Assembly: GCF_041260155.1 (NCBI RefSeq)
Contig: NC_091932.1
Span: 42,110,125-42,174,124, forward strand
Source of the DNA: Ptychodera flava
Taxonomy: Eukaryota > Hemichordata > Enteropneusta > Ptychoderidae
Direction: 5' to 3'
DNA: 64,000 bases
Shown here: one piece after another, positions 27,215 to 53,224 of the stretch
How positions within the stretch are numbered: the stretch's first letter is position 1
Layout: every line of letters begins with the position of its first letter
Notes under the pieces: generated by a model
Database searches by the model: none
What the model saw: the letters and a program-made list of their open reading frames with translations, nothing else
Told to the model about the DNA's origin: nothing
Position numbers and translations under genes: made by a program

Positions 27215-28648
27215 ATGGCTAAATCTTGCTACGTAGAAAACAGAAAATTTTGGGAATCTTTTCTATCACCGCTGAAAATATCCACCTTCTGTGCTACCAG
27301 CGATCGACTACTACAACCATTGGGAGATACAGACTATTCACTTCCACCCGATGATACATTGGCGAGGCGTTTCATCAACGAAGTTGAGGAACCGAAAATA
27401 ATGGCCGCCAACCTGTCAAAAAAACCTAAAACGCCCCGTTCTGGAGGTGAAGGGACCACAGCTGGGGTTTGTGCGAGCGCTACCCCGTCCACCAGTGGCA
27501 CACAAACTCTTACTGTAGACGATTCGTGTAATCTTGGTGACGTTGACTGGGACGATGGCGTTATAAACATGGGCAAATATATTGGTAATGTGAAATTGGT
27601 ACGCAGGGAGTCCACAGATATTGGTACGGCTGAAGCAAATCTGGCTGTTGAACATGATGACAAAAGAATCGATGACGCTTCGCAGTTAAAAGGTAACGGC
27701 CGAGGCGTTGCTGGCAAAGAGATGTCGGATGAGCGAAAATGTTCATCTCCCAAGAAGGCAACATCGAAAAGCGGGGGTGACTCATCCAAACGCCAACGTC
27801 AACTTAGCTTCGAAAGAACAAGGCCACGCCTTGAGCGCCAAAGCTCCTTTGAGATCGAAAATATGTCGGAAAAAAAGAGAATTTCGGCCTTGTCGAAGGG
27901 CAAGAAAAATCCTCGCAAGCGAGGTCTGGACAAGTTTGACATAGACAAACCCGCTTCCCAATGGACTCTTGATATGATTGCAAACTACTTTGGGGAAGGA
28001 GATGTCTTTGAAAGTTGCTTTTCTCCAAGACCACTGGAATTGAGTAGTCCTGGAAAAACCTTGATGAGGTCAAGACGCGACTTAGTGAGGTTAGAGACAT
28101 CCTTGGCGTTCAACTTGATGACACAGATTCAAGCACCACTGGGTTAGAGCTTATGTACAGTAATAAAACTTAGCGAAGCAGACTGTAGGCTCATTTTAAA
28201 TTCCATAATTTTTCTGTTGTGTAAATTCAATGATGTCAGAATCGCAACAGAACAAGAGCTTGATAGTAATCTGGGTCCAAAGTGTAAGTATGATTACTGT
28301 TTCTATAAGGGAGATCGCTGCATTGGTATCATGGAGGCTAAATCCACTTCAGCGACAGGTATGGTTCCCAAAGCTGTAGCTCAGGTAATTATCCAGTTGT
28401 TTGGTCTAACATTGCAAGTTCAAAAGGGAGAAAACGAAAGTGAAAGAGAATGGTCCCATTCTCCATTTGCTATACTGTCTAATGGTTTCCAATATGTGTT
28501 TATGCGTTTGTCAGAAAATTATCTACGATTTGAGTGCGCATTACCTAATGGAAATTCAACGCGAAAAATACTAGTTAATGAGGCTAAAACGTGGGAGAAT
28601 TTGAAAGAGATTGTTGAGAAAATCAACTATCTGTTTTCAGATTGCTAA
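27215..28648 (+). pseudogene. PD-(D/E)XK-like nuclease family, copy A (broken)
   Basis: The start (MAKSCYVENRKFWESF) and the first 280 residues align to copies B and C. The C-terminal nuclease-like domain is also present and nearly identical at the DNA level. The reading frame is broken about midway, with roughly two changes, so no full-length product is expected. It sits in unit A with the same 3' UTR-like sequence as the other copies. The broken state beside an almost perfect nuclease-coding stretch suggests either very recent damage or copying of that stretch from an intact relative. Confidence 0.75.
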
Positions 28649-28950
28649 TTTTTAACAACTATTAATAGATGAGGAATTTGTATTTTGCTGCACACTTCAT
28701 GTTTTTTCCCGATTTTGTGGTTTTGTGGTTTTCATTCAAAAACCCGGTTTCTGTTCCTTATTTGCAGGAGTGTAATGTTTTACTACACTTTTAAGAGTGA
28801 TTCATTGTGTCATTTGAAAGATTAGCCACATCTAATTGATTTACAAGATGTAAAGTTAAGTAAAGTAAGCCTTTATTGAAATCGTATCCCAATTTGGATC
28901 TTGATCAGAAAGTAATATAAAGGTTTTGCAAAACCAACAAAAGAGTAATA

Positions 28951-28953
<3 letters not shown>

Positions 28954-29036
<83 letters not shown>
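28954..29036. repeat. (AT)n microsatellite
   Basis: About 40 AT dinucleotides. It is preceded by a 75-bp sequence (AGTAAGCCTTTATTGAAATC) that recurs at 31545-31610. Confidence 0.95.
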
Positions 29037-29039
<3 letters not shown>

Positions 29040-29174
29040 CACAAGAAAAAATGAAAAAAACAAAGCAAAATATTGAACATGTAATATCCTCACTTCATAT
29101 ATATATGAAGTCAGGATATTACATGTTCATCAATATTTTGCTTTGGTTTTTTTTTTCATTTTTTCTTGTGTGAA
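29036..29174. repeat. Palindrome, ~65-bp arms, centred on ATATATAT
   Basis: TTCACACAAGAAAAAATG is mirrored by CATTTTTTCTTGTGTGAA, and GAACATGTAATATCC by GGATATTACATGTTC. Unit B keeps only the right half (34858-34925), so the left half arose here by inverted duplication. Confidence 0.85.
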
Positions 29175-29284
29175 TTTAAAACATGTATGTATGTTTTTTC
29201 CCAATTCACATAATGATGATTTGTCTGTTCTTTATAAAAAGTTTATAAGGTCTTATGTCTCTCAATGTGTTTTTACAAATGTAT

Positions 29285-29830
29285 CGGATAACCAGGATAT
29301 TGTTCATGAGAGAATTGTTATGAATACTTTATCAGAGGATTTTAAATGACAGTGAAATTTGTACGAATTGAAACAGATAGAGCGAATATGTTTGCTATGC
29401 GATAGGAACGAGGTTGAAAATACCGCTTTGTTGTAATGTGTAACATATTTTGATAGTTTAATTTATCCTCCGACAGAGAGAGAAATTTATCTCTGTGATG
29501 AAATCAAATGATCCAAATATTCTTCAGCGTATAACAGCATATACGTTCCATGCTGTGAAATTATGAAAAGAGCTAGGTGAACAGTATTGAGGGCATGAAG
29601 TAAGTGTTTATAGTATTTACCTGTCAATTGTATTATTTTGTCAATTTCGCTGTAATGTTATTGTGTTGAGCCGATGGTCTTAAATCATTGGCTTAAAACC
29701 TTACAACAACGTTCTGTCATTTTAGTTTGATTAAAGCACATGATTAACAGAGACAAGATTAAAATTAATTGAATTAGAAGACACAACTCAGAAAAAATAT
29801 TCTGTCATCAAATGCAACTGATGTCCTGGG
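29285..29830 (+). mobile_element. LINE C-terminal tail at the 3' end of unit A
   Basis: A broken frame reads ICLLCDRNEVEN, then CVTYFDSLIYPP, and in another frame NDPNILQRITAYTFHAVK. The C-x2-C...E...C pattern and the final helix are typical of the C-terminus of APE-type LINE proteins. The same tail follows copies B, C and E. Confidence 0.65.
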
Positions 29831-30030
29831 ATGCAAGTATGATTAACTCTCTCATTACATCAGAAAATAAAAATCATACTTGTAAAATGTAGGAAAATAG
29901 GCATCCGATTTGCGTAAAAATTGTGTAACGTTATTTTTGTACCAGTTATCAAAATAATAATCCACAGCACAAATGCTTTGAACAGCTTCCTTTGGATGTT
30001 AAATAGGGCTCCTCATTCCCTAGGCAATTT

Positions 30031-31505
30031 CGAGGCAGCCTTGAGCAATGTGCTCGCGTAATTTGGTCACTTTTGTCTTTGGTAAATTTTCAAACCGTAT
30101 GATGAAAGTTTGAGTTATTATCGTACTTGGAATGCATTATATTTTAATTTAAAAATTGTAAACCAGTTGGCGTTTGTCTTATGTCTTAACGGTTTCTAGA
30201 TTAGTCAGAGTATCTCAAGAACGGAAGGAAATCAAGGATCTGGCTATCCTGTGGACTAGAGTGCGCTCGCGTCAATCTTCTGCCGAGTTGACAGCGTGTG
30301 TGTACGTACATGTGCTTGAATAGAACTTCACTGACATTGCAACCACTTGGCTTTATATTGAAGTGACGCCTAATATTGTGATATGGGTTTGAAAGCAATC
30401 TCCTGTGCTCGGTGAATTACTACTTAATGTTCGAGTTACAATACGGCAGAAATATTCACTGTATGTTTTATCAAACATCAGCCATGTCAGCATACTCAGA
30501 GTGAATATTGCAACTTCTTGCCGGTGATTATTCCGCTATTTTGTTTCGAAATCTTCTGTAGTCATGGTAACGAATTGCATTGAATGCATCTATTCCGAAA
30601 TCAGATTTGAAGTGACTAAAAATTGCCATGCATTGAATTTTTTTTGGTTCTATCTCATCGCTGTTGCAGCTGTTTGACACAGTGAGGAAACAGAAGTAAA
30701 ACAAGAAAATCCATGTACAGCGAAGATAAACATGAAGTCACCTTTACGTCACTTTAAAATTTTAACATTAAATCAATTTATATTACTACTTCTGTTTTAT
30801 AAGAAATGTAAAATGTTCAGTTCAATATACTATCGATGGATCATGGAGCCATGATTATTCACATGTAGGTAGTTATGGGTTTAGAATGTTTAATTGAAGG
30901 AATTCATCTTTCTGTGAACATGGTTGAATGACATCACTCATGTCATCCTTATATACTTTTGACCGATGTCGGCAAACAGAAAGCAGTGTTGCGGGTGAAA
31001 TAGTTGAAAGTTTGATAGAAGAAAGCTTGAGCAAAAGTTTAAATATTTCACAGTCGAGGGCATACCACCTTAACGAGAAAAACTCAGCTGTAATTTTGAA
31101 ATTTGCCGTTGTTTTCTTCACAATTTTGTTTTAAGGAATATTTAAAAAAAAACCAACAGAATTCTTCACATTGACACTCTCAGAGGGTCCTGTCTTGGCT
31201 TTATGTTATGGTGATATTACTGTAAATTTTCAAACATCTACTTCATTCGTAGTTGAAATTATGAAAGCCCTTAAGACCAGAACGCATTTAATAGTAACTA
31301 ATATAGTATAGTGACCAACTTCAATCTAAATATGCAAAATCGCTGAGACACTGTTGTCGACAACAAACCATCTTATCTACTGGAAAGTAACACACAGGTG
31401 AAAACTGATACAAGACGTGTGTGTGAGCTGTTGGCGAGTTTCAAGTATAAATCGAGGGGATAATTCTCCACGTTTGTGGCATTCGTTAAGGGAGGGGATT
31501 AGAGG

Positions 31506-31537
<32 letters not shown>

Positions 31538-31656
31538 AGTAAAGTAAGCCTTTATTGAAATCGTATCCCAGTTGGGATCTTGATCATAGAGTACAATAAA
31601 GGTTTTGCAAATACACAGGTAAAAACTGATGCAAGACATGTGTGTGAGCTGTTTGA
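30031..31656. other. No gene; partial copies of repeats
   Basis: 31000-31390 is a partial copy of the compound repeat at 19720-20280 (TTGTCGACAACAAACCATC shared). 31507-31534 is a (GTAT)n run. 31545-31610 repeats the sequence found before the (AT)n of unit A. I see nothing coding. Confidence 0.5.
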
Positions 31657-33044
31657 TATGTTTTCATAAGCTTTCAAAAGCAAGGCGAGCTGCCAACTCC
31701 CCCATACGCCTTCTGCAGACATGTATGGGCGAACAGCAAATGTTTGCTTAGACTGCGTTCTCGAACACCTCTGGGCGGGAAATGCAGAACATTTTATCTC
31801 ATTTTAAACGTCCTCTCTGAAAGTCTAAAACCTTCAAGTATCCCCTTCGAAATCATAATTGTATTGAACCCCCCGCATTTTTTCGGTCCGCAAAGGTGAC
31901 TTCCCCTCACCTGACGAAACACTGTACACAAATGCACCTATAACTAACATACATCTTTATTGAACATATCGACTGGTAATATCTGTGAACGACAGAATGT
32001 TTCAATTCGATTTTGGCCTGTCAACGTGAGTTATCTATTTTAGACCATGTCATAGAATTGTTTAGGATTACTCAGGTCTATGGGGAAGTATCGCCATCCA
32101 ATATTTGCATTACTGCTTCACTGCTCTTCTGTCATCCAGTGTGGATGTATAGAAATGGGATACTACCCCTGGGGTCCTACGAGGTCGGTCAGAACCTACA
32201 GAGTAATAGTAAGTCTTGTAATTTAACACGCGCTTTTCGTTCCATGTCTCTGCTGAAGAATATTGCAAATTATTGTGTGTACACTGTATAATTCAGAGTC
32301 TGCACTCACGCTGGCCAGGAGAGGGTGGTTTGTTTAATTTAGATCACTACCTTTGTACCAGCTGCTCTGATAAAAATCAGGGTTTCTCTTGACCCCGAAA
32401 ATGATGTTCAAGTAGTGTCATGTGATTTGTGCAAAGCTGTATCAGTGTCAGAAAGTATCTGACTGTGAAAGCTTTTTCGCTAAGACAATTATTTTGTGAT
32501 ATTTTGTTTATTAGTGATCCATTATGTTGATTCAGAAGCAATCAGTTTTCAAGTCCTCATTCTGTCCTACGGTATTTTCAAGTCCACGGTGGAAACGTGC
32601 CTTCATATTTTTCAAGCCCCTCTTCAATTTCCCCGGGCCCCTCCAGACTTGTTCGTGAACACAGCCTTAAATACGATTAGAACTAATTTGGGATAATTTG
32701 ATGGTGAAGTAATGCCGATTTAATCTACAAATGTTATCTCACCTGCTTTTCTTTTTTATATTACACACTTGTTTTATTAGTAACTTGTAATATTGCAACA
32801 TTCAGCTATACGGCACCTAACTCTTTTGAGAAATTTGAAAAATATGAAAATCCAATAATCTCAAATTAGTTCCAGTCGTGTTCTTTAATAGAGTCTGTTG
32901 ACTAACCTTACGTCAGTTGCCTGATCCTCATTGTGCCAATTACATGAATTAGGGTCACTCCCGGTCACACCCATAAAGCCCTGTTAGATATTTTCATGTC
33001 TAAACACAGCATAACAACCGTTCTCCAGTCTTTAGTGTGTAAAC
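31657..33044 (+). repeat. 5' flank of unit B
   Basis: Matches the 5' flank of unit A (AAGGCGAGCTGCCAACTCC, then the GTCATCCAGTGT and ACAGCCTTA blocks). It carries one extra MITE at 32670. The last 100 bases before the ATG (GGGTCACTCCCGGTCACACC, CCAGTCTTTAGTGTGTAAAC) are shared with copy C and partly with A, and may hold the promoter. Confidence 0.6.
32670..32882 (-). repeat. 210-bp MITE copy 3, inserted in the 5' flank of unit B
   Basis: Ends AATACGATTAGAACTAATTT and AAATTAGTTCCAGTCGTGTT. The interior is in the opposite orientation to copy 1. Units A, C and E read ACAGCCTTACAGTCTGTTG across the site without it, so it inserted after the units duplicated. Confidence 0.85.
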
Positions 33045-34469
33045 ATGGCGTCATCTTGTTATAGAGAAAACAGAAAATTTTGGCATTCTTTCCTATCACC
33101 TCTGAAAATATCAACCTTCTTTGCTACAAGCGATCGACTACTACAACCATTGAGGGACACAGACTATTCACTTCCACCCGGTGATACATTGGCGAGGCGT
33201 TTCATCAACGAAGTTGAGGAACCGAAAATAATGGCCGCCAACCTGCCAAAGAAACCTAAAACGCCCCGTTCTGGAGGTGAAGGGACCACAGCTGGGGACT
33301 GTGCGAGCGCTACCCCGTCCACCAGTGGCACACCAACTCCTACTGTAGACGATTCATGCAATGTTGATGACGTTGACTGGGACGATGACGTTATATGCAT
33401 TGGCGAATATACCGATATACAATTGGTTCGCCCGGAGTCCACAGATATTGGTACGGCTCAAGCAAATCTGCCGGTTGCATATCATGGTGACGAAAGAACC
33501 GATAACCCCACGCATGTAACAGGTAACGGCCGAGGCGAAAGGTCAGATGAGCGAAAAATTTCATCTCCCAAGAAGGCAACATCGAAAAGCGAGGACGACT
33601 CATCGAAACGCCAACGACAACGTAAACATGGCAACGAAATAACAAAGCCACGTCTTCAGAGCGAAAACTCCATTGAAATCGAAAATATGTCCGTAAAAGA
33701 CAGAGTATCTGCATTGTCGAAGAGCAAGAAAAATCCTCGCAAGCGAGGTCTGGACAAGTTTGACATAGACAAACCAGCTTCCCAATGGACGCTTGATATG
33801 ATTGCAAACTATTTTGGGGAAGACGATGTCTTTGAAAGTTGCTTTTCTCCAAGACCAGTGGAAATGAGTAGTCATGGAAAAACCTTTGATGAGGTCAAGA
33901 CGCGACTTAGTGAGGTTAGAGACGTCCTTGGCGTTCAACTTGATGACACTGATTCAAGCACCACTGGGTTAGAGCTTATGTACAGTAATAAACTAAGCGA
34001 AGCAGACTGTAGGCTCATTTTAAATTCCATAATTTTTCTGTTGTGTAAATTTAATGATGTCAGAATCGCCACAGAACAAGGGCTTGATAGCAATCTGGGT
34101 CCAAAGTGTAAGTATGATTACTGTTTCTATAAGGGAGATCGCTGCATTGGTATCATGGAGGCTAAATCCACTTCAGCGACAGGTATGGTTCCCAAAGCTG
34201 TAGCTCAGGTAATTATCCAGTTGTTTGGTCTAACATTGCAAGTTCAAAAGGGAGAAAACAAAAGTGAAAGAGAATGGTCCCATTCTCCATTTGCTATACT
34301 GTCTAATGGTTTCCAATATGTGTTTATGCGTTTGTCAGAAAATTATCTACGATTTGAGTGCGCACCTAATGGAAGTTCAACGCGAAAAATACTAGTTAAT
34401 GAGGCTAAAACGTGGGAGAATTTGAAAGAGATTGTTGAGAAAATCAACTATCTTTTTGCAGATTGCTAA
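33045..34469 (+). CDS. PD-(D/E)XK-like nuclease family, copy B, intact 474 aa
   Basis: Single open exon from MASSCYRENRKFWHSF to INYLFADC, with the start conserved in copies A and C. Residues 1-60 are conserved and partly helical. Residues 65-235 are low complexity and charged, with basic clusters (KKPKTPR, KKNPRKRG) that could be nuclear signals and an acidic patch (DDVDWDDDV). Residues 236-270 form a conserved block (QWTLDMIANYFGEDDVF). The last 165 residues contain a helix, KCKYDYCF (Asp), IMEAKS (ExK) about 13 residues later, and VAQVIIQLFGL. That D...ExK...Q order and spacing fit the PD-(D/E)XK nuclease superfamily. No signal peptide or membrane helix, so it acts inside the cell, perhaps on nucleic acid. 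I do not recognise a named family. Activity and role are inferred from the motif only. Confidence 0.7.
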   Translation: MASSCYRENRKFWHSFLSPLKISTFFATSDRLLQPLRDTDYSLPPGDTLARRFINEVEEPKIMAANLPKKPKTPRSGGEGTTAGDCASATPSTSGTPTPTVDDSCNVDDVDWDDDVICIGEYTDIQLVRPESTDIGTAQANLPVAYHGDERTDNPTHVTGNGRGERSDERKISSPKKATSKSEDDSSKRQRQRKHGNEITKPRLQSENSIEIENMSVKDRVSALSKSKKNPRKRGLDKFDIDKPASQWTLDMIANYFGEDDVFESCFSPRPVEMSSHGKTFDEVKTRLSEVRDVLGVQLDDTDSSTTGLELMYSNKLSEADCRLILNSIIFLLCKFNDVRIATEQGLDSNLGPKCKYDYCFYKGDRCIGIMEAKSTSATGMVPKAVAQVIIQLFGLTLQVQKGENKSEREWSHSPFAILSNGFQYVFMRLSENYLRFECAPNGSSTRKILVNEAKTWENLKEIVEKINYLFADC

Positions 34470-34731
34470 TTTTTTAACAACTATTAATAGAGTTATCTTT
34501 AAATCACAGCTGATTGCCGTTTGAAATGAGACGATACTATGGTCACACTAACAAACGATTGCATCCGCATTGTGTATTTTGCTCCACACTTTATGTTTTA
34601 TGGTTTTCGAACAGAAACCCGGTTTCTGTTCCTTATTTGCAGTAGTGTAGTGTTTTACCGCCCTTTTAAGAGTGCTTCATTGTGTCATTTTAAAGATTAG
34701 CTACATCTATGTGATTTACAAGATGTAAAGT

Positions 34732-34741
34732 ATATATATAT

Positions 34742-34836
<95 letters not shown>
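34732..34836. repeat. (AT)n then (GATA)n microsatellite
   Basis: AT dinucleotides to about 34788, then about 12 GATA units. It sits where unit A has its (AT)n. Confidence 0.95.
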
Positions 34837-34837
<1 letters not shown>

Positions 34838-35293
34838 TACATATATATGTATATATAAGGTCAGGATATTACATGTTCATCAATATTTTACTTTGTTTTG
34901 TTTTTTCATTTTTACTTATGTGAATTTAAAATATGTATGTATGTATTTTCCCAATTCACATAATGATGATTTGTTTGTTCTTGAAAAAAGTTTTTAAGGT
35001 CTTATGTCTCTGAATGCGTTTTTACAAATGTACCAATTACAACTTCGCCGATGCTAACTCGCCATGTATACCACCCCGAAATTCCGGGGTTAGTTAATAT
35101 GCTAAGCCGGTCGGAAGGTGCAGGTGTGAATCACGATGACGTCAATAATACCAAAATCAAAATACTCGGACAGCCTTTGCATGCGAGGCAGTGTGCGGAA
35201 ACAGCGACTATCTCCCTTATGAAGTTTGACTGAATGTTAGTTTCGTCAAAGTCACTCCATGAGGGACTGTGGTTTCGTGAAGGTTAGGCTGCG

Positions 35294-36892
35294 TTCACAA
35301 AAAATGGGGGGGGGGCTGGAGGAATTCAGGGGGGATTCAAAAATTTCCGGGGTAGTGGAGGGAGGGGACTTGAAAATTTTGCTCTACCTTTAGGGGGGGG
35401 GGGCTTGAACATTTTTGGGTCCCTTTTGAGTTTGACATTTTCCAATTCCAAGTTTTTGTAGGTAATTCAATGAAAAATGAATACCATTTTTTAAGTCATC
35501 AAAATGTTGTAATGTTAGTAATAATTTAACAAAATCTAGAACCATTTTGTCACATTTCATGACTTTTATCTCGAAAAAATCTAAATCTGTGATTTGTCGT
35601 AAAAAACAAACTTGAGCCTCGTAACAGGGCAGAAGCTGCTAATGATTTCTGCAATATTTCTATGCAATATAACAACTACAGTTTCTTGCTATCTCCCTAC
35701 AGCATGCTAAAACACACAATATTTAGTTTGTGGACAAAGCCTGTATATATAAATATAAATATGTATTTGGTGATAATTTAATTAGAGTCCAGACTCACAG
35801 TCAGTTGTCAGTGATACAAATGCATGGTACACGTACATAGGCTGTGATAGCAAGCTGAATACTGAACAATTCAACATGCTGTAGGGAGTTGAACAAGAAC
35901 GCAGTTGTAAAACTGAACAAAAATATTGCCAAAATTATCAAAGTTAATACAGCTACTGCCTACGGGTAGTGTCACTATCAGATACTGCAGTGTCACTGTC
36001 ACTGCATACCTGAACAGTGACAGAGATAGCTCTGACTCTGATGTACATGGTAGTTGAAGAAGAGTTTTGGTCAAATGACACTCATGACAGTGAAACTCAC
36101 TCGTACACAAGATCAGGCCAGAGAGCAACACATGGAAGAAAACATAGAAATGTTTGAATTCTGGCATATGAGAATAATCAAATATTAAAGAAAAAAGATG
36201 GGGTCACCATGCTTGATTTTCTAAATTTTCACACTCTTATTATGGAATGATACATAAGTAAAACTTTGAATAGTAAAGACTAAAAGAAAAAATATGTGAC
36301 CAAATGGAATTATTTATTTTTTAACCAAATTTGCAATTATCACACCCAAAATTTCAGAGATTAAAACATTTATTTGATGAAATATTTTAACCTTCCAGTA
36401 TTGTCAATTTTGAGTAGCATCTAATTCATATACGTCTTGTAGTTTCAAAACAATTTTGGTAGGTCACTGTGCAATACGGCAATTAGCCAGAATTCACAAT
36501 TTTCCTACTCTCTCATGATTGCATTTTGTGTGCTCTTCAACAGGAGCAATTGACCTGTCCAGAGTTGATTAACTCAAGTTGGCTTTTAGACCAATAAATC
36601 TAAAAAATTCGCTGATGCATTTAAAGAACTTGCCTTGGGAATATGACTATACAAAGTGCTAATACAGGTAGTGTTGAACACCTGTGAGCAGAACGGCGCA
36701 ATACATGTTTATTTTTTCTGCGCTCACATCCTTTACAAATATGCGGGCCTGTGATACTTTGGGGGGACTTGAAAAATTTTGACCATATAGAGGGGGGCAT
36801 TTGAAAATTTTTTAGGGTACTTAGGGGGGGGATCTGAAAAAAAAAAAGATTTCAATCGAGATTCCTCCAGCCCCCTAATCGTTATTTGTGAA
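35294..36892. repeat. G-rich foldback element, 1.6 kb
   Basis: The left end (TTCACAAA..., G run, GCTGGAGGAAT) is mirrored at the right end (ATTCCTCCAGCCCCCT, TTTGTGAA). Inside both ends lie repeated units of the form GGGGGG..CTTGAAAATTTT. A partial reverse copy lies at 40380-40705. No ORF. Confidence 0.7.
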
Positions 36893-37045
36893 GGTTATTG
36901 GTATTTTGAAAGTCTGACACCCGACTTGGCAATTGCGATGCGACATCGGTACAAAAGAACTGAAAAGACGCTTCGTTGTGCCAACACCTGACACAATAAC
37001 TGAAAATGGTCGAAGCCAGGAGTGTGCGTAAACACGGCCACTCCA

Positions 37046-40705: not shown

Positions 40706-41436
40706 CCCACTGGGCAAAAATGCTTGATATACAACAATATCCATACATATGCTGACTCAGTACATTTGTGAAATGCGTTACGTATACACGTGCGTATATT
40801 AACAAAATGAACAAGTACAGTGTACTCCTGTTCTGCATAGATATACGCTGTCAAAGTATTGATATGTTCCATATACAAAGATATACGTAAAATATACCAC
40901 TAATTTTGCGTTCTGTATACGTAAATTATACGTTCAATATACGTAAATATTCCTTTAGCCCCTGCCCTCACCAGAATTCGTGCAATGCAGCCTCACAAAT
41001 AAAAGCCTCAGTAAATATGACGTCATACACACCTGAAATTAAAAAGTGTCGAAATTACAACTGGTTAATTAAATAGAGTTGAAAACTCTGAAACTACAGA
41101 CAAGCAATAATTCTTTCTTTGTCGTGACATTTCAGTTCTTGTTTTAATTTGCTATTTTCATTTGCAGATGTAATATTTACCCCTGCTGGCACTAGTCAAG
41201 TGAGACTAATTTATGAATAAAAATGCATTTATAACTAACTTCAACACAAACAGTGTCTGGATCACAAACCTCTTCGAACGTTCGGTGTCCAGTAAAAGTG
41301 TGATAAGGCCGTTGTGTTCGCTTGTTACTTGTTTTCATAGTATTTGTTTTTATTTGTTTTATCGCCTATCGTTTTTCATGATAACAACTAAACGCGAACG
41401 CACACAGAGCCAATATTTTCGGTATGCGTATACTAA

Positions 41437-41870
41437 GCGGATAACCAGGATGTTGTTGATGAGAGCATTTTTATGAATAATTTATCAGAGGATTCTAAAT
41501 GACAGTGAAATATGTACGGATTGAAACGGATTCAGCGAATATGTTTGCTATGCGATAGGATCGAGGTTGAAAATACCGCTTTGTTGTGATGTGTAACATA
41601 TTTTGATAGTTTAATTTATCCTCCGACAGAGAGGAAATTTATCTCTCTGATGAAATCAAGTGATCCAAATATACTTCAGCGTATAACAGCATATACGTTC
41701 CATGCTGTGAAATAAAAAAAAGAGATACGTGAACAGTATTGAGAACGTGGAGTAAGTGTTTATAGTATTTACCTGTCAATTGTATTATTATGTCAATTTC
41801 ACTGTAATGTTATTGTGTTGTGTCTTAAATCATTGGCTTAAAACCTTACAACAACGTTGTGTCATTTTTT
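41437..41870 (+). mobile_element. LINE C-terminal tail of unit B
   Basis: Starts CGGATAACCAGGATGTTGTTG and reads ICLLCDRIEVEN in a broken frame, followed by the same CCGACAGAG...ACAACGTT sequence as 29285-29710. Confidence 0.65.
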
Positions 41871-43190
41871 GCTCACGTGTTCACACACGTGAGCATATGT
41901 CGCAACGATGTCTGTCTGTCTGTGTGTCTGTCTGTGTGTCTGCTGTCTGTGTGTCTCTGTGTCTGTCTGTGTGCTCGATATCTCAAAAACGGCTCATCAG
42001 ATCAGAATCAAATCTGGTATATAGATTCAGTTTGCAAATGGCAAGAACTGATTAGTTTTTGGTGGGTGTGGCTTGCTTACTTTTTGCTCATTTGCATAAT
42101 TAATGATTTTAGAAAAAAACATATATTTACAACGACTGCATACAATTTGATGAGATTTGCTACAAATGTTGATCACACCAAGATATATCAGCTGTGAAAG
42201 ATATTAAGGGGTGACATAAAAGATAATGGATAATTTGCATATTTAATGAACTTTCCTAATTAGGGATATATATCTGATTTGACTAGATCAAAATTGACAA
42301 AACTTGGTATGCATATTGAAGATACTATGATTTAACATTATTGAAAGTCATTAAGCATTTTCACTTCATCAAACTCTTAATAAGCATATTTAATGAACTT
42401 TTGAAATTAGGGATACTTATTTGAATTGACTAGACCAAAATTGATGAAACTTGCTATGTACATTAAAGATACTATGATATAACAATGTTGAAAATCATTA
42501 AGCATTTTTACTTCAGCCAAATACTTATTTGCATATTTAATAAACTTTCGTAATTAGATATATAAATCTGAATTGACTTGACCAAAGTTGATGAAATTTG
42601 CTATGTACATTGAAGATACTATATGATATAACATTATTGAAAATCATTTAACATTTTTACTTCAGCCAATTCATAATTTGCATATTTAATGAGAACACTT
42701 CACTAATATTGACTCGACCAAAGTTGATGAAACTTGCTACATATATTGAAGAAAACAACATTATTGAAAAGTCATTAAACTTTTTTACTTCAGCCAATTC
42801 CTAATTTGCATATTTAATGAACTTTCCTTATTAGGGATATTTATCTGTATTGACTAGACCAAATTTGACGAAACTTGCTATGTACATTAAAGATACTATG
42901 ATACAACATTGAAAGTCATTAAGCATTTTTACTTTAGCCAATTCCTTATTTGCAAATTTAATGAACTTTCCTAATTAAGGATATTTATCTGTCTTGACTA
43001 GACCAAAGTTGACGAATTGCTTTGTACATTAAAGATACTATATGATATAACATTATTGAAAATCATTTAACATTTTTACTTCAGCCAATTCATAATTTGC
43101 ATATTTAATGAGAACATTTCAGTCAATTCTTAATTTGCATATTTTAATGAACTTTCCTGATCCAGGATATATACTTGGATTTAAAATTAA
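41871..43190. repeat. Tandem array, ~115-bp period, with a palindromic head
   Basis: GCTCACGTGT/ACACGTGAGC (41871-41894) and a (TGTC)n run lead into eight or so imperfect units. Each has TTTGCATATTTAATGAACTTTC, then GACTAGACCAAA..TTGATGAAACTTGCTATG, then CATTAAGCATTTTTACTTCAGCC. Conserved TTTGCAT and ATTTAATGA words recur in every unit. Confidence 0.8.
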
Positions 43191-43550: not shown

Positions 43551-43762
43551 ATTGATGACTACTGAATCTCCTCTGTCCAGACTTGTTCGTGAACACAGCC
43601 TTACAGTCTGTTGACTAACCAAACGTCAGTTGCCTGATCCTCATTGTGCCAATTACATAAATTAGGGTCACTCCCGGTCACACCCATAAAGCCCGGCCCT
43701 GTTGGATATGTTTATGTCCAAACACAGCACCATAACCGAGCTTCAGTCTTCAGTGTGTAAAC

Positions 43763-45193
43763 ATGGCGTCATCTTGTTATAGAGAAAACAGAAAATTTTG
43801 GCATTCTTTCCTATCACCTCTGAAAATATCCACCTTCTGTGCGACAAGCGATCGACTACTACAACCATTGCGGGATACAGACTATTCACTTCCACCCGAT
43901 GATACATTGGCGAGGCGTTTCATCAACGAAGTTGAGGAACCGAAAATAATGGCCGCCAACCTGTCAAAGAAACCTAAAACGCCCCGTTCTGGAGGTGAAG
44001 GGATCACAGCTGGAGATGGTGAGAGCGCTACTCCGTCCACCAGTGGCACACAAACTCCTACTGTAGACGATTCGTGTAATTTTGATGACGTTGACTGGGA
44101 CGATGACGTTATATGCATGGGCGAATATATCGGTAATGTAAAATTGGTTCGCCGGGAGTCCACAGATATTGGTGAGGCCCCAGCAAATCTGCCGGTTGCA
44201 TATCATGATGACGAAAGAACCGATGACCCCACGCATGTAACAGGTAACGGCCGAGGCGAAAGGTCAGATGAGCGAAAATTTTCATCTCCCAAGAAGGCAA
44301 CATCGAAAAGCGAGGACGACTCATCAAAACGCGAACGACAACGTAAACATGGCAACGAAATAACAAAGCCACGTCTTCAGAGCGAAAGTTCCATTGAAAT
44401 CGAAAATATGTCGGTAAAAGAAAGAGTATCTGCATTGTCGAAGGGCAAGAAGACTCCTCGCAAGCGAAGTCTGGACAAGTTTGACATAGACAAACCCGCT
44501 TCCCAATGGACGCTTGATATGATTGCTAACTATTTCGGGGAAGACGATGTCTTTGACAGTTGCTTTTCTCCGAGACCACTGGAAATGAGTAGTCATGGAA
44601 ATACTTTTGATGAGGTCAAGACGCGACTTAGAGAGGTTAGAGACGTCCTTGGCGTTCAACTTGATGACACCGATTCAAGCACCACTGGGTTAGAGCTTAT
44701 GTACAGTAATAAACTAAGCGAAGCAGACTGTAGGCTCATTTTAAATTCCATAATTTTTCTGTTGTGTAAATTTAATGATGTCAGAATCGCTACAGAACAA
44801 GGGCTTGATAGTAGTCTGGGTCCAAAGTGTAAGTATGATTACTGTTTCTATAAGGGAGATCGCTGCATTGGTATCATGGAGGCTAAATCCACTTCAGCGA
44901 CAGGTATGGTTCCCAAAGCTGTAGCTCAGGTAATTATCCAGTTGTTTGGTCTAACATTGCAAGTTCAAAAGGGAGAAAACAAAAGTGAAAGAGAATGGTC
45001 CCATTCTCCATTTGCTATACTGTCTAATGGTTTCCAATATGTGTTTATGCGTTTGTCAGAAAATTATCTACGATTTGAGTGTTCATCACCTAATGGAAGT
45101 TCAACGCGAAAAATACTAGTTAATGAGGCTAAAACGTGGGAGAATTTGAAAGAGATTGTTGAGAAAATCAACCATCTTTTTGCAGATTGCTAA
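43763..45193 (+). CDS. PD-(D/E)XK-like nuclease family, copy C, intact 476 aa
   Basis: Single exon with the same start as copy B. Candidate catalytic residues are Glu345 (RIATEQG), Asp359 (KCKYDYCF), Glu373 and Lys375 (IMEAKS), and Gln389/Gln393 (AVAQVIIQLFGL). Basic clusters lie at 69-75 and 228-235, an acidic patch at 108-116. It differs from B by scattered substitutions in the first 300 residues (for example MGEYIGNVKLVRR against IGEYTDIQLVRP), but the nuclease-like part is almost identical down to silent sites. Only the last 200 bases of the 5' flank are shared with the other units, ending in the same CAGTGTGTAAAC before ATG. The 3' side continues into a duplicated C-terminal fragment and a LINE tail. 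Nuclease activity is inference from motif spacing; function is unknown. Confidence 0.7.
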   Translation: MASSCYRENRKFWHSFLSPLKISTFCATSDRLLQPLRDTDYSLPPDDTLARRFINEVEEPKIMAANLSKKPKTPRSGGEGITAGDGESATPSTSGTQTPTVDDSCNFDDVDWDDDVICMGEYIGNVKLVRRESTDIGEAPANLPVAYHDDERTDDPTHVTGNGRGERSDERKFSSPKKATSKSEDDSSKRERQRKHGNEITKPRLQSESSIEIENMSVKERVSALSKGKKTPRKRSLDKFDIDKPASQWTLDMIANYFGEDDVFDSCFSPRPLEMSSHGNTFDEVKTRLREVRDVLGVQLDDTDSSTTGLELMYSNKLSEADCRLILNSIIFLLCKFNDVRIATEQGLDSSLGPKCKYDYCFYKGDRCIGIMEAKSTSATGMVPKAVAQVIIQLFGLTLQVQKGENKSEREWSHSPFAILSNGFQYVFMRLSENYLRFECSSPNGSSTRKILVNEAKTWENLKEIVEKINHLFADC

Positions 45194-45314
45194 TTTTTTA
45201 ACAACAATTAACAGAGTTAACTTTGAATAACACCTGATTGCCATTTGATTGCCATGGTAGGGTCACAACTTCAGACTTTTTTCTTCACACACTGACAAAG
45301 GATTGCATCTGCAT

Positions 45315-45383
45315 GAGGCTAAAACGTGGGAGAGTTTGAAAGAGATTGTGTTGAAAATCAACTATGTTTTTGCAGATTGCTAA
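45315..45383 (+). repeat. Duplicated last 69 bp of the copy C reading frame
   Basis: GAGGCTAAAACGTGGGAGAG...TTTTTGCAGATTGCTAA repeats the 3' end of the gene about 190 bp downstream, with four to six changes. It is an internal duplication, not a gene. Confidence 0.85.
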
Positions 45384-45639
45384 CGGCCTATATTGGGGTC
45401 ATCCTATGTTCACGACTTCCACAGCAGGTATTGAGTCTCTCATCGCACACTGACAAAAGGTTGCATCCGGAACGTCTGTTTTATTGATCCACACTTCATG
45501 TTTTATCTCGATTTTAAGGTTTTCATCCAGAAAACCCAGTTTCTGTTTTCTTTTGCAGTAGTGCAGTGTTTTCACACCCTTTTAAGAGTGCTTCATTGTG
45601 TGATTTGAAAACTTAGCTACATCTATGTGATTTACAAGA

Positions 45640-45830
45640 TGTATCAGATTACCAGGATGTTGTTGGTGAGAGCATGTTGATCATTTTTTCAGAGATACAG
45701 ATACAGATACAAAATTAAGAAATGGTGTACATCAACTGATATGTTTGCTCCGCGATAGAAACGAGGTTGAAAATGAATATTGCTTTGTTTTACTGTGTAC
45801 TATTTTTTCGATAGTTTAATCATAGACAGT
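45640..45830 (+). mobile_element. LINE C-terminal tail of unit C
   Basis: CAGATTACCAGGATGTTGTTG follows directly after the 3' UTR-like ACAAGATGTA, and a broken frame reads ICLLRDRNEVENEYCFVL. Copies C and E lack the insertion seen in A and B at this join. Confidence 0.6.
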
Positions 45831-46407
45831 AGAGAAACGACTCTCAAGTAAACCAAAATTTTCTGTTTGGGATGTCGGTCATTGGCAAAGATCACTCAAA
45901 ACACTAAATGCTGCATAAAACTTGTAGTTTAATGAAAAATTAACTAACGAATTGAAAATAAAATGCCAGTTATCACAACGGCTTTAAACTAAGCGTGACC
46001 AGGTAACTAGAAGTGAACAAAAAAGGAGAGCACAGACCCGTCAGACATGTTCTCTGTTCTTGAACCGAGTTGAGGTTCTCTACGGCACGAGTCGAACAGA
46101 CTAGACACAGTTCAGTTCTTGTACGACATTTGATCAATGACGGAGAGCTCGACGGCCGAGGGAGTACGCCGACCTCACGTGAGCGACAGTAAGGTTTACA
46201 GTGATTGCCAAGCCCAAACATCTATCGTGTACGTTTACCACTTGATGTCCTGCGATAATTTGCAAAGCGGTGCTGTTCAATAATTATAATATTTCTCCTT
46301 AACTGGTACCCAGCTGGCAAAAATACAGCTAGCTGCCGGATTCTAATGAAAACAATGAATGGCAGTAAGCGTACTTTCAGATGAATTTGGCTTTGGAATC
46401 AAGATAG

Positions 46408-46723
46408 TTAAGGTTGTAAACACCCTGAGAGTTAAAGACTTAAACTTCAGCTGAAACATTCCTCTAAACTTTCTCCCAGTCTCTTTCAAAATCACCGGTA
46501 CCAGAGAAACAAATTTATTTTAACGTTACCGATATTTGAACTTCAAAATGGCTAAATCCGTCTGGTAAATCTATAAGGAAAATCACATTTCTAATAAGCT
46601 AAAGATGCTGAAAATTTCACTTGGATGAAGAGCTTTGAAAAGATAATGTACAAGCGACTGATAAGAAAAGTACTGGAAATTTGAGAGTCAAGATAGCTGT
46701 CCAAGAGGCGCATTCTACCTTAA
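46408..46723 (-). repeat. MITE-like element, TTAAGGTAG family, copy 5 (reversed)
   Basis: Ends CTACCTTAA at 46723, with AAGAGGCGCATT inside it, the complement of the GCGCCTC block. Diverged but alignable with 16095-16462. Confidence 0.6.
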
Positions 46724-48858
46724 CTTGTAAAAATAAAGAATCTGCTACTTTACCATTTGAAATTCAACCAGCTTTGTACTGAATAACGAGACAAAAAATC
46801 AAAAAAGACATTTATAAGATTCTAGTTTTCAATATGACAATGAAGTGCATTTCGATTTGGGAAATTTCTCCTATAATTATCTGTTCGACCCGGTCAAAAA
46901 ATAAAAAGATTTGCGACCTAATGACTCTATTTCTTATAGGGGTGTTACAGGTTACAAACAATTACAGTTTTGAGCTGCTGGAATTTTAAGTTTTAGGACA
47001 TAAGTTCATGGGATCGGAAGTTAGGTCCGAATTCGAAGTAGGTCAACTTTCGAGGGTGTCAAGTTGTGAATGGAAGTTTCGAAGTAGGGCCAAAATCCTC
47101 GGTCAAATATTCAGGGGCATCGTCAGTCCAAGATTCTCAGCTCACTCTATCATTACATACAGTCCTGTGATTCCTTCATAAATGTCAATGATAGAGCTGT
47201 TCGTTGAACCGAACGCCTGTCCTTGCAGTAGCTTTCAACGCGTGGGCCTATTGCATCAAATATATAAACCTGTCAATTATGACGGCCACGGACCAAAGAT
47301 GTTGACGCACGAAACCACAAAAAAAATGACACGATCAGCTAAATTGCACTACTCGGACGCAGGAGAAAAAGGAATTCAACTTCCTTTATCACAATGCAGT
47401 ATCACAATTGAGTACCTCTTATCACAATATAAATACAACCTGTAACCTAACATCTTCATTACCTATGCCACACTCGGCTGGTCTGATAAATGACACAAAA
47501 ATTGAATACAGAGATAAGGCATTCGCCTTCGAACAGCTAACAAGAGAAGCAAAGACCAGGTAAGCTTATAACGATGGACAAGCCGCCATCTCTACAGACG
47601 TCAGATTAAGTGTCTCTGTGTCCTGGCAACCCATGCCGAAGGTTAGAGGTGAGGCTGAATTAAGCCACATGTTCGCACAAGTTAAAATTTTTAATCGGGG
47701 CTTGACAGTTGCCAAAAAGGGTCGTCTAATTTTTTAACAACAATAATGGTATCATACCAGATCAGCAAACATTTTGAAATACACCGATATTTCAAAACCT
47801 TAGTGGATGTGGTTGAGTCGCTGATATACGGTGACATCTTGATCCTACGATAATTAACGAAATCGGGTCGGTGATAATGGTACACTAAACCTAAAGTCGA
47901 TCATACTAAAATTCGCTGTTCGTAAATTTTAACACAGTGACAAAATCAAAAAAGGCCATATAAACTTATCCAAGCAAGTGATGTGTTGGAAAAATTAAAG
48001 TGCGATCCACAATTAGTTTTCAAAAAGTTGGTAACTATTTTATCAATACCTCCGAGTAACATAATAAATTTGTGTTGAATATGGAAGGCTAATTATTCGC
48101 TTCAACTGGCTATCACTATGAGCATTGGAGGGACCGTGATATGAACAAAACAACATACATTGAGATGGAGTAAAACCATGGATTCATTTCTTCTCAGCTT
48201 GGTATTATGTCATTATTCCAGCCAGCTCGACGTGTGCAGGACACATTGTTAGTCAGCGGTTCTATAATGCGTGTATTTCTCATCCAAATACTCTCAAAAG
48301 AGGTTACAGACTGGACTGAATATGAAGTCAAAATGTTGGCCTGTGATTGGACGTATGAAAAATACTGAGCTCTATCTAGATGCTGCAAAATCTGATCTCT
48401 ACATAATTTGGTGTGAAACTTGTTATCTGCAAAAATATTTTTCTTAAAATACTTATTTGTCATGTTTATAGGTGTAAATGGTCTTCCTTCATTATCCCTT
48501 TCGGACAACTACAATTAGTTGGAGCAACTTAAATCTCCTTTAAAAATCGTGATATCACGTGGTAAAGCCTAATTTTTAACAATTTTTTCATATTTTTGAT
48601 TCAAATTACATCCTCAGTATGTGCAAGTAGATCATAATTAATACTGAATCGCATGGTTTGCATACCCAGCCCGCCTAAAACACGTGTACGATTAACAGTA
48701 AAAGGAGAGATATATGACTTGTTGTTCAGACCAGAATCGGGGTTCGTTGACACACGAAGCGAAACGTAATCACACAACCGCCCATGCTCAACCACTTCTA
48801 CGCAAGTTTTACTGTGGCGTCCATAGAAACCTATGCTCTTCCTAACGGTCTGGCCAAT
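46724..48858. other. No gene recognised
   Basis: Short unlinked frames only. No repeat from elsewhere in the window was matched. Confidence 0.4.
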
Positions 48859-48888
48859 CACAGTCCCTCTGTGGATAGAGGGACTGTG
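48859..48888. repeat. Perfect 12-bp-arm hairpin CACAGTCCCTCT/AGAGGGACTGTG
   Basis: Arms 48859-48870 and 48877-48888 around GTGGAT. Related hairpins are at 38965-38996 and 63763-63798. It is followed by (AT)n at 48902-48964. Confidence 0.85.
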
Positions 48889-48898
48889 GGTCAATCGA

Positions 48899-48901
<3 letters not shown>

Positions 48902-48964
<63 letters not shown>
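48902..48964. repeat. (AT)n microsatellite
   Basis: About 31 AT dinucleotides between the hairpin and truncated copy D. Confidence 0.95.
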
Positions 48965-48967
<3 letters not shown>

Positions 48968-49045
48968 TATAGATTGTTCCGACTATAATGAGTTGTGCAA
49001 ATAAAAGTCCTGAAAATCTAAACTAACGATCGAGGCAGTAGATTG

Positions 49046-49622
49046 CAAATGGACGCTTGACATGATTGCAAACTACTTTGGGAAATACAATGTCTTTGAA
49101 AGTTACTTTTCTCTGAGACCACTTGAAATGAGTAGTCATGGAAAAACCTTTGGTGAGGACAAGACGGTTCATTTTAAATTCCAAATATTTCTGCTGTGTA
49201 AATTCAATGATGTCAGAATTGCCACAGAACAAAGGTTTGATAGTAATCTGGGTCCAAAGTGTAAGTATGATTACTGTTTCTATAAGGGAGATCGCTGCAT
49301 TGGTATCATGGAGGCTAAATCCACTTCAGCGACAGGTATGGTTCCCAAAGCTGTAGCTCAGGTAATTATCCAGTTGTTTGGTCTAACATTGCAAGTTCAA
49401 AAGGGAGAAAACAAAAGTGAAAGAGAATGGTCCCATTCTCCATTTGCTATACTGTCTAATGGTTTCCAATATGTGTTTATGCGTTTGTCAGAAACATATC
49501 TACGATTTGAGGGCGTACCTTATGGAAGTTCAACGCGAAAAATACTAGTTAATGAGGCTAAAACGTGGGAGAATTTGAAAGAGATTGTTGAGAAAATCAA
49601 CTATCTTTTTGGAGATGGCTAT
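49046..49622 (+). pseudogene. PD-(D/E)XK-like nuclease family, copy D (5'-truncated)
   Basis: Similarity begins abruptly at the WTLDMIANYFG block, so the N-terminal half is absent, and an internal piece of about 120 bp before the nuclease domain is also missing. The nuclease-coding stretch from KCKYDYCF through GFQYVFMRLSE matches copies B and C almost perfectly. The normal stop is lost. Neither 5' flank nor LINE tail of the repeat unit is present, so this is an isolated fragment. It is unlikely to be functional, although an open frame persists. Confidence 0.8.
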
Positions 49623-49890
49623 TTTTTAACAACTATTAACGGGGTCAAAAACGGAGTATTGAATAAAAGATATATATATTTAAAAACTATCTACTGTTGA
49701 TTGACCAATCAGAGTACTCAATTCAGGGTGTTTTATCTACTCGTAAAGCCTTGGTCACCAAATTCCAGAAACGAATGACAGCGCCGTAGTAAAGTACTGT
49801 CCAATTAAAAGTGAACATGTCATATTCTGTAGACATCTGGTACGTTTTAATATTCAAATTTGGCAACACAGCGGAAACCACCTGCAATAC

Positions 49891-50054
49891 AAAATCTGCT
49901 GTGGTACAAACATAAACTAATGTGCCCTAGGGCATTTATAGGATGTTCCATTACATTGGAAGGCTATTTCACAAAATCTGCTGTGTTACAAACATAAACT
50001 AATGTGCCCTAGGGCATTTATAGGATGTTCCATTACATTGGAAGGCTATTTCAC
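49891..50054. repeat. Tandem duplication, 82-bp period, two units
   Basis: AAAATCTGCTGTGGTACAAA at 49891 recurs at 49973, and the units differ by about one base, so the duplication is recent. Confidence 0.95.
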
Positions 50055-50884
50055 AAATAAAAGTTTTAATTCATATCCTAAACATGTTACATTGACAAAG
50101 GGGACGGTTGACGTAAACACATTGAAAACAAAAATATATCAGTTAGGGGTGATAGTTTTTAAGTCAGATAAAACCCTCGTACTCGGGCTCTTCTGGTATA
50201 TAAAGTCCGACCCTATGATAAAATGTCTCGGCATGCGGCCTCGACATGTGTCGACTAACTAATTACAAGATGTGTATATGAGAGATAAACGTCCTTGTAA
50301 TGGGGTGTAAAATGAAAAAAGAGTCAAGATACTAGGTTAGGTTATATCATTATTTATTTTATTTACTCCAATCAATCAGAGCATGAAGAAAGGAGAGGAA
50401 AACTGAAAAAAAACCTCAATACGTCTGGGTCTTCTTTGTTGTGAGGAGATGCGTCAACAGTAATATGTTTTGTATTTCAAAATCTTGGCGAGCTGCAAAC
50501 TTTCTTTGCGCCCTCGCAAGACATATATGGGCGAACAGCATTTGTTTGCTTAAGCTGCATTCTCAAACACCCCTGTGCGGGAAATGTGGAACATTTCGTT
50601 TTCTCATTTTGAACATTCCTCTGAAAGCCTCAAACCCTCAAGTGTCCCTTTCAACATCATAATGATGTTGAAACCCCCCCCCCCCGGAATCGTTTCTGGT
50701 CCACAAAGGTGACTTCCCTCTTCGCTTGCCGAAATACTGTAAGCTTACACAAATGCACCTAAAACAAACATACATCTTTATTGAACTGGTAATATCTGTG
50801 AATGACAGAGTGTCTAAATTCGATTTTGAACTGTCACCGTGAGTTACCTATTTGAGACCTCGTCATAGAATTGGTTCGGGTTAG

Positions 50885-51405
50885 GGAGCCTTCAGAAATT
50901 ACAGGGGGTTGGGCAGGGGGAATGGGGGGAGGGTCACTTTTTAGCAAACAGTTCAAGGGGGAGGGTCATGCACTTTTTATAAACCTATCTTGAGGAGAGG
51001 GTCACTTTTGACAGAAACTGATTTTACAATCGCAATTTATCATGCTAGAATTTTTGAAGAGATATGGTATTTCATACCATGGATAGTGAATCAACTTTTT
51101 AGATGAAATTCAGAAATCAATTCTTGTACACAAATGCACATTTTACTTTCCTATTCAAGCAAAGTACATTTAAATACATTATCAAACATATATAATATAC
51201 AGATATAGCATGTTTTGTGGGGGAAAATTGTCAATAATTTGCCTGATAGACTCCATGTATTTTGATATTTTTGGATGAAGCACTAAATCAGCTACATCTT
51301 GCCTTCTCATAGTTGCACAAAATATGGTGACCCTCCCTCAAATGTATGAAATACCATATCTCTTCAAAAATTCTTGCATGATAAATTGCGACTGTCCCTC
51401 CAAAT
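50885..51405. repeat. G-rich foldback element inserted in unit E
   Basis: ATCATGCTAGAATTTTTGAA near 51038 is mirrored by TTCAAAAATTCTTGCATGAT near 51362, and the left GGGGGAGGGTCAC repeats face GTGACCCTCCCTC. Units A and B lack it at the matching position. Confidence 0.75.
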
Positions 51406-51879
51406 TTAGATCACAACCTTTGTACCAAGTGCTCTATTAAAAAATCAGAGTTTCTGTTGAACCGCAAATATGAAGGTGAAGCAGTGTCAAGTGATTTGTA
51501 CAAAGCTGTATCAGTACCAGAAAGTATCTGTCTTTTATAGTAAATATAACTGTGAAAGCTTTTTCGTGACTATAAATTTTGCATAATATTTTGTTTAATA
51601 GTTATCCATTTCAAGTTCACATTCTGTCCTAATGTTTGCAAGTCCACGGTGCAAATTTGCCTTCAGTGTTTCAGGCCCCTCTGCAATTCTCCCCTCCAGA
51701 CGTATTCGTGAACACAGCCTTACAGTCTGTTGACCTATATCTGTTCGTCTTATCCTCATTATGCCAATTCCATAAATTAGTGTCACTCCGGTCATGTCAC
51801 TCTCATATTGGATATGTTAGAATTTCTTGTCGAAACACACCACCATAACCGATCTCCAGTTTTTCATGTGAAATCATCG

Positions 51880-53224
51880 CTGTATCTTGTTATAAAGACA
51901 ACAGAACGTTTTGGGATTCTTTTCTATCACCTCTGAAAATATCAACCTTCTGTGCGACAAGCGATCGACTACTACAACCATTGCGGGATACAGACTATGC
52001 GCTTCCACCCGATGACACATTAGCGAGGCGTTTCATCGACAAAGTTGAGGAACCGAAAATAATGGCCGCAACCTGTCAAAGAAACGTATAACGCCCCGTT
52101 CTGGAGGTGAAGGGACCACTACTCCGTCCAGCAGTCACACACCCTGTCCTGCTGTTGACGATTCATATACTAGTAAGCTTAGTGAAAGGGATGATGACGT
52201 TATATATGTGGGCAAATATAGGAACTCTACAGATATTGATACGGGTCAAGCAAATCTGCCTGTTCCATCTGCTGACAAAAGAACCTATGTAAAAGGTAAC
52301 AGCCGAGGCGAAAGATCGGACAAGCGAAAATTTTTATCTCCCAACACGGCCACATCAAAACGACAACGACAACATAAACATAGCTACAAAAGAACAAAAC
52401 TGCTCCTTGAGAGCCAAAACTCCTCTGAAATCGAAAGAATGTCGGTTGAAGAAAGAAAATCTGCATTGTCGAAGGGCAAGAAAAATCCTTGCAAGCGAGG
52501 TCTGGACAAGTTTGACATAGACATACCCTCGTCCCAATGGACTCTTGCTATGATTGCAAAGTACTTTGGGGAAAGCAATGTCTTTGAAAGTTGCTTTTCT
52601 CAAAGACCAGTGGAAATGAGTAGTCATGGAATAACCTTTGATGAGGTCAAGACGCGACTTAGTGAGGTTAGAGACGTCCTTGGCGTTCAACTTGATGACA
52701 CCGATTCAAGCACCACTGGGTTAGAGCTTATGTACAGTAATAAACTAAGCGAAGCAGACTGTAGGCTCATTTTAAATTCCATAATTTTTCTGTTGTGTAG
52801 ATTCAATGATGTGAGAATTGCCACAGAACAAGGGCTTGATAGTCATCTGGGTCCAAAGTGTAAGTATGATTACTGTTTCTATAAGGGAGATCGCTGCATT
52901 GGTATCATGGAGGCTAAATCCACTTCAGCGACAGGTATGGTTCCCAAAGCTGTAGCTCAGGTAATTATCCAGTTGTTTGGTCTAACATTGCAAGTTCAAA
53001 AGGGAGAAAACAAAAGTGAAAGAGAATGGTCCCATTCTCCATTTGCTATACTGTCTAATGGTTTCCAATATGTGTTTATGCGTTTGTCAGAAAATTATCT
53101 ACGATTTGAGTGCGCATCACCTAATGGAAGTTCAACGCGAAAAATACTAGTTAATGAGGCTAAAACGTGGGAGAATTTGAAAGAGATTGTTGAGAAAATC
53201 AACCATCTTTTTGCAGATTACTAA
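51880..53224 (+). pseudogene. PD-(D/E)XK-like nuclease family, copy E (broken 5' end)
   Basis: The N-terminal coding region is recognisable (DNRTFWDSF-like, then TFCATSDRLLQPL) but lacks the start codon and is broken about two to three times. From 52208 a 338-residue frame is open through the conserved WTLAMIAKYFG block and the complete nuclease-like domain (KCKYDYCF, IMEAKS, AVAQVIIQLFGL) to the usual end. A shorter protein from an internal start is possible but unsupported. The N-terminal half is the most diverged of the five copies, while its nuclease DNA is as similar to B and C as they are to each other. Confidence 0.75.

Follow-up and report, generated by a model that had tools for sequence, protein, structure and literature searches.

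We report a family of five homologous copies of an intronless gene in a 64,000-nucleotide stretch of the genome of Ptychodera flava (NC_091932.1, positions 42,110,125 to 42,174,124 of the forward strand; hereafter the window). The family is probably best understood as the product of an old segmental duplication, in tandem, of a gene encoding a PD-(D/E)XK nuclease of the HsdR/RecB type that has no helicase, with a core that has been kept alike in all copies by ectopic gene conversion.

An initial annotation of this DNA had placed the five copies and called two of them intact, and on both points it was right. The likeness between the copies by blastn is far beyond chance, frames of 474 and 476 amino acids run from 33045 and 43763, respectively, and the motifs KCKYDYCF, IMEAKS and AVAQVIIQLFGL are found in five of five copies. 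All of the copies lie on the plus strand, spanning 27215-53224, and are referred to by the following letters:

Copy A, 27215..28648, plus strand: frameshifted, with frames 27215-28147 and 28148-28648; the D, E and K of the nuclease domain are retained.
Copy B, 33045..34469, plus strand: intact, intronless, 474 amino acids.
Copy C, 43763..45193, plus strand: intact, intronless, 476 amino acids; the reference for numbering.
Copy D, 49014..49700, plus strand: fragment, with a 228-codon frame over the nuclease core; first Met at 49062.
Copy E, 51880..53224, plus strand: start ATG lost; open over 52049-53224 (391 codons), with the first in-frame Met at 52439.
Remnant of the 3' end of the gene, 45309..45380, plus strand: 24 codons, directly behind copy C.

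In copy A the frame is interrupted by the loss of one base at codon 282 and the gain of one at codon 316 (C numbering), both of which adjoin short homopolymer runs. Copy D has large deletions that removed most of its N-terminal half, and others in the region preceding the nuclease core, and copy E carries 4-base and 1-base shifts near its 5' end. The gene blocks are 82-95% identical across 1.6-1.9 kb (blastn; the six pairs of A, B, C and E) and copy D is 95-96% identical to each of the other four over about 0.48 kb. There are no introns within the coding part of B and C; in A, B and C a splice-acceptor-like stretch, noted by eye ahead of the ATG, would allow for a 5' non-coding exon.

The C-terminal domain had been read as PD-(D/E)XK-like. 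Sequence profiles bear this out and narrow it to the HsdR/RecB type, though no confident fold could be obtained from the low-confidence structural models described below. The domain is placed as follows:

Predicted HsdR/RecB-type PD-(D/E)XK domain (C residues 331-476), 44753..45190, plus strand: D359, E373 and K375, and a helix with Q389 and Q393.

Six stretches of this domain, three overlapping ones of C and one each of B, D and E, were scanned against Pfam, and all six matched HSDR_N (PF04313), which was the top match in five, at library-corrected expectation values (E) of 0.0032-0.028 that all fall below the curated cut-off. HSDR_N was likewise the top match of the copy A fragment (E 0.0059, below the cut-off) and matched C in a scan of the longer frames (E 0.19, also below it). 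The sole NCBIfam match, obtained with one of three queries, was to PRK11448, a type I restriction endonuclease model (E 0.12). Because a second profile, Staph_opine_DH (staphylopine dehydrogenase), competed with HSDR_N in Pfam, we built a 13-row hidden Markov model (HMM) from EcoKI HsdR and 12 bacterial relatives. The latter were taken from 40 listed of the 50 plasmid records matched by a 254-residue stretch of EcoKI HsdR; eight carry the annotation hsdR, two are labelled DEAD/DEAH helicases, one a type III res subunit, and one is unannotated. This HMM matched five of five copies at E 7e-5 to 0.0022 (14.9-19.8 bits), against E 4.2 (4.1 bits) for the best decoy among 2,000 shuffles of the C domain and 456 other open reading frames (the 461 of at least 50 codons in the window minus the five copies). 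A comparison by hhalign of the HsdR alignment with the five copies gave a probability of 90.5% and E 1.3e-6 (for one comparison) over 68 columns.

The alignments carry the likeness to the residue level. D359, E373 and K375 of C align with D298, E312 and K314 of EcoKI at identical spacing, DYCFYKGDRCIGIMEAK of C being in register with DYVLFVGLKPIAVVEAK of EcoKI in the HMM alignment, and the nuclease region of HsdR (EcoKI residues ~290-390) and the family share the EAK tripeptide. Following the triad, the PF...NG..Y strand motif is also in register, with PFAILSNGFQY of C aligning with PF..S(T/C)NGR.Y of HsdR. The pattern of D, 13 residues and E-x-K occurs once in C and in 12 of the 13 bacterial sequences. 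According to excerpts of a study of EcoKI HsdR, the mutants D298E, E312D, E312H and K314A show no DNA cleavage (PMC2602864). The assignment of an HsdR-type nuclease domain to this family is supported by sequence profiles, and the domain, which shares motifs II and III with PD-(D/E)XK nucleases of the HsdR/RecB type, would work as they do and probably descends from that branch. Unlike in HsdR, the domain is C-terminal, behind a disordered half, and its setting is eukaryotic. There is also no SF2 helicase behind the nuclease: C ends 101 residues after K375, and a type I restriction subunit was rejected as an identity on the grounds that Pfam finds no helicase in the copies.

A number of results weigh against the assignment. 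No Pfam or NCBIfam profile match attains a curated cut-off, neither full-length B nor the open frame of E matches HSDR_N in Pfam, and Staph_opine_DH is matched by five of the six domain stretches and outranks HSDR_N in B (E 0.0082 versus 0.027). One of the 13 bacterial sequences (L012) is without the spaced triad. The QxxxY motif of RecB-like nucleases is absent, C reading Q389-V-I-I-Q393 (QxxxQ) in its place, although, since EcoKI too is without a distinct QxxxY in the same excerpts (PMC2602864), this motif does not appear to be required for the HsdR/RecB type. AlphaFold models of the whole of C (six near-identical rows) and of the domain (five near-identical rows) have a mean predicted local distance difference test score of 32.1 and 43.9, respectively, too low to show a fold; the order of elements that they predict, helix-strand-strand-strand-helix-strand, would suit the PD-(D/E)XK core, and is seen only in these low-confidence models. 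Structure searches with them gave no clear match, and no PDB sequence was matched by C or by a profile of the second frame of copy A. With EcoKI HsdR itself as query there were three PDB matches, each starting at residue 410 or later, beyond the nuclease region.

Overlooked in the initial annotation was a concentration of identity at the DNA level in the nuclease core, which includes the broken copies:

Near-invariant core in C, 44815..45081, plus strand: 267 nucleotides; differences from C number 0 in B and in E, 1 in A and 3 in D.
Equivalents of the core by alignment to that of C, plus strand: A 28270-28536, B 34094-34360, D 49247-49513 and E 52846-53112.

Across A, B, C and E, 67 of 294 third codon positions vary in codons 1-330, against 1 of 89 in codons 352-440 (Fisher test, 6.6e-8), and fourfold sites vary at 20 of 94 upstream and at 0 of 36 in the core (Fisher test, 0.001); the core interval for these tests was picked after the pattern had been seen, which counts against them. 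With D added, third positions vary at 12 of 43 versus 2 of 89. Synonymous divergence (dS) runs from 0.087 to 0.33 in codons 1-240 and from 0.03 to 0.10 in codons 281-330 for the six pairs of A, B, C and E, and from 0.033 to 0.074 in codons 331-476 for the ten pairs of all five copies. A test on the length of the invariant run is independent of the choice of interval: among 20,000 shuffles, none attained the run of 89 codons for the four copies A, B, C and E, and 1 did so for each of the trios A, B, C and B, C, E. Because silent sites and broken copies share the identity of the core, purifying selection on the protein alone is excluded as its cause, and protein selection is not the main one. 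Repeated gene conversion would be the simplest cause of the pattern. Gene conversion homogenises copies, so that the invariance of D359, E373 and K375 in all five is weak evidence for function. In this array conversion, more than protein selection, would explain the seemingly perfect conservation of the catalytic core, which is a trap for those who equate conservation with function.

Further points tell against conversion. With only B and C compared, 1,683 of 20,000 shuffles have as long an invariant run, which is not significant; silent divergence is uneven, with codons 331-351, just before the core, varying at 5 of 21 third positions; and the downstream flanks of A and B, at 84-89%, are no more diverged than the linker of the N-terminal half. 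Collapsing or polishing of near-identical repeats during assembly could also mimic conversion. Such an artefact, or a constraint on the DNA or RNA sequence itself, is an unlikely explanation of the core in place of conversion, if one with points to recommend it: conversion would have to strike one interval in all five copies, and an 18-nucleotide near-palindrome, GAGAATGGtcCCATTCTC, sits in the core at 44991-45008, a weak lead in that its 8-nucleotide arms are matched by 10 of 300 shuffles. Its difficulty is that the broken copies have the core identity in common, that no Rfam family is found in the window at gathering thresholds and that these same copies are clearly resolved in their linker and flanks.

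The N-terminal half tells of a long coding history. Relative to C, copies A, B and E together carry 14 insertions and deletions (indels), of which 10 have lengths divisible by three, as do 9 of 9 in the stretch from codon 66 to codon 281, a range picked after the list had been seen and with D excluded for its large deletions. The ratio of nonsynonymous to synonymous divergence (dN/dS; the six pairs of A, B, C and E) divides this half in two:

Constrained N-terminal segment (C residues 1-62), 43763..43948, plus strand: dN/dS 0.14-0.37.
Disordered-like linker (C residues 63-240), 43949..44482, plus strand: in-frame indels; dN/dS 0.56-1.06.

From the in-frame indels and the low dN/dS of residues 1-62 it therefore follows that the family was coding through most of its history; copies A and E probably broke late. 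The N-terminal half had been described as disordered and basic. The first part stands for the linker, which is disordered-like both in composition and relative to the charge-hydropathy boundary, but a basic half was rejected, since residue counts and isoelectric points (pI) make it net acidic in both B and C: residues 1-300 hold 46 K+R against 54 D+E in C (pI 5.4) and 44 against 50 in B (pI 5.6). A few basic patches (KKPK, KRER and RKR) lie inside this acidic half, and given these patches import into the nucleus is possible.

This architecture invites comparison with the eukaryotic Crinkler-like (CR) effectors, whose domains were reportedly defined by Zhang et al. in 2016. The family would then be such an effector, with a C-terminal domain of the restriction endonuclease (REase) superfamily behind a trafficking header, acting in or delivered to nuclei. 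It is multicopy and has a nuclease-like C-terminal domain behind a non-enzymatic N-terminal half, much as the CR REase effectors of oomycetes and fungi, compared here by description only and from excerpts, join a REase domain at the C-terminus to an N-terminal part that is not enzymatic. Excerpts of one report have the REase domains of CR C-termini coupled to NTPase or kinase domains (PMC5289972). In contrast, neither a CR header (Ubl) nor an NTPase, helix-turn-helix or kinase domain is recognised in the family by Pfam, C residues 1-266 being without a Pfam match up to E 10, and we regard this identity as doubtful.

The duplicated unit takes in flanks on both sides of the gene, which the initial annotation had also overlooked. 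Its parts at copy A, and a flank that stands alone, are:

Upstream part of the duplicated unit at A, 25925..27055, no strand assigned: blastn pieces.
Downstream part of the duplicated unit at A, 28669..29907, no strand assigned: blastn pieces.
Solo downstream flank with no gene beside it, 41436..41868, no strand assigned: 41438-41868 is 92% identical to 29285-29723 (blastn).

Counterparts of the upstream part are found by blastn as pieces within 31656-32669 (B) and 50436-51722 (E) at 66-77% identity, and directly ahead of the gene A and E are closer, at 83% in one block of 150 columns. Pieces of the downstream flank of A recur near 34492-35032 (B; 84-89%), 45215-45820 (C; 72-79%) and 53241-54785 (E; 71-81%), and the solo flank is the probable relic of a further, lost copy. 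Because the flanks are common to copies on both sides, we favour segmental duplication over separate insertions. To judge from these alignments, the array most likely arose long ago by tandem segmental duplication, the repeated unit measuring about 4 kb and containing the intronless gene.

A mobile-element endonuclease or its domesticated derivative, with copies arriving by insertion, is quite improbable by comparison with such a duplication. The copies are indeed intronless and repeated, and the DNA around them is rich in repeats and includes a reverse transcriptase (59919-62130), yet the aged flanks shared on both sides argue against independent transposition of each copy, which we reject, and convincing terminal inverted repeats are lacking around A, B, C and E (judged on the 5 longest of the 143 pairs for A and of the 34 for B). 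The longest inverted pairs around these four copies are AT microsatellites, arms of a repeat upstream of B and one 23-nucleotide pair in C.

Some proteins of the REase fold have lost activity, and the domain might similarly be a catalytically dead PD-(D/E)XK-like module that binds DNA or protein; this we hold to be very improbable, as the D-E-K triad stands at canonical spacing in five of five copies, a point that conversion nevertheless weakens. Conversion could even be self-driven, the nuclease nicking or cutting its own core, for example at the near-palindrome, and repair from sister copies overwriting all cores, which would amount to homing-like behaviour within a eukaryotic gene array built on an HsdR-type domain, but this is a long shot.

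On the reading that we prefer, of a duplicated and converted HsdR/RecB-type nuclease, the gene product would be a single-chain DNA nuclease consisting of the short constrained N-terminal segment, the fast-evolving disordered linker, a short segment around WTLDMIANYF and the C-terminal nuclease domain. If the analogy with HsdR holds, a divalent metal would be bound by D359 and E373, with K375 assisting in the attack on the phosphodiester bond. As no helicase or motor domain is recognised, targeting would presumably be supplied by the N-terminal half or by partners. Repeated ectopic conversion, tightest over the nuclease core as the silent sites suggest, would keep the core near identical in the five copies while the linker and flanks diverge. 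The likeliest role, and here we are guessing, would be that of a nuclease inside the cell that attacks foreign or mobile DNA, or that serves recombination or repair. If all this is true, a eukaryote has taken the DNA-cutting domain of a bacterial restriction motor and made of it a compact nuclease family that stands alone, joined to a fast-evolving disordered half instead of a helicase.

Searches for relatives began from short exact peptides, by which distant relatives would be missed. Within that scope, 4, 1 and 7 peptide-pattern matches in three scans of viral contigs and 49 in prokaryote genome contigs included none that tblastn confirmed. In phages tblastn found nothing, and in plasmids it gave a single match (E 6), in a Tn3 transposase, which we take as chance. 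Three queries of PADLOC gave no match, and PHROGs returned only three weak families (best E 0.032), two of them unnamed and one labelled ATPase. Among the literature matches listed, taken by their titles and the starts of their abstracts, no HsdR-type nuclease array in an animal was found, and one may exist in print.

Several further repeats lie in or near the array. A dispersed repeat of about 215 bp occurs at 17406-17622, 25378-25591 and 32667-32886, the copies being 80-85% alike; the third adjoins the upstream block of B and has imperfect terminal inverted repeats. Two tandem units of 164 bp, 97% alike, lie at 54381-54709 within the downstream flank of copy E, and a tandem array with a unit of about 147 bp lies between B and C at 42197-43121.

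The remainder of the window holds microsatellites and has an apparently low coding density, features that together with its reverse transcriptase speak for eukaryotic DNA, and no tRNA genes were found in it. The reverse transcriptase at 59919-62130 (minus strand) is of the non-long-terminal-repeat class, with a match to RVT_1 (E 6.6e-18) at 60482-61675 and a sub-threshold match to zf-RVT (E 0.0033) in the frame next to it; its frames are broken. At 10578-12127 (minus strand) two long overlapping frames (185 and 365 codons) contain acidic stretches and may be exons of a host gene; the longer has only a weak Pfam match, to RE_NgoFVII_C (E 0.094). Finally, the 500 bp at 24057-24556 match their own reverse complement at 70%, forming a long imperfect palindrome.

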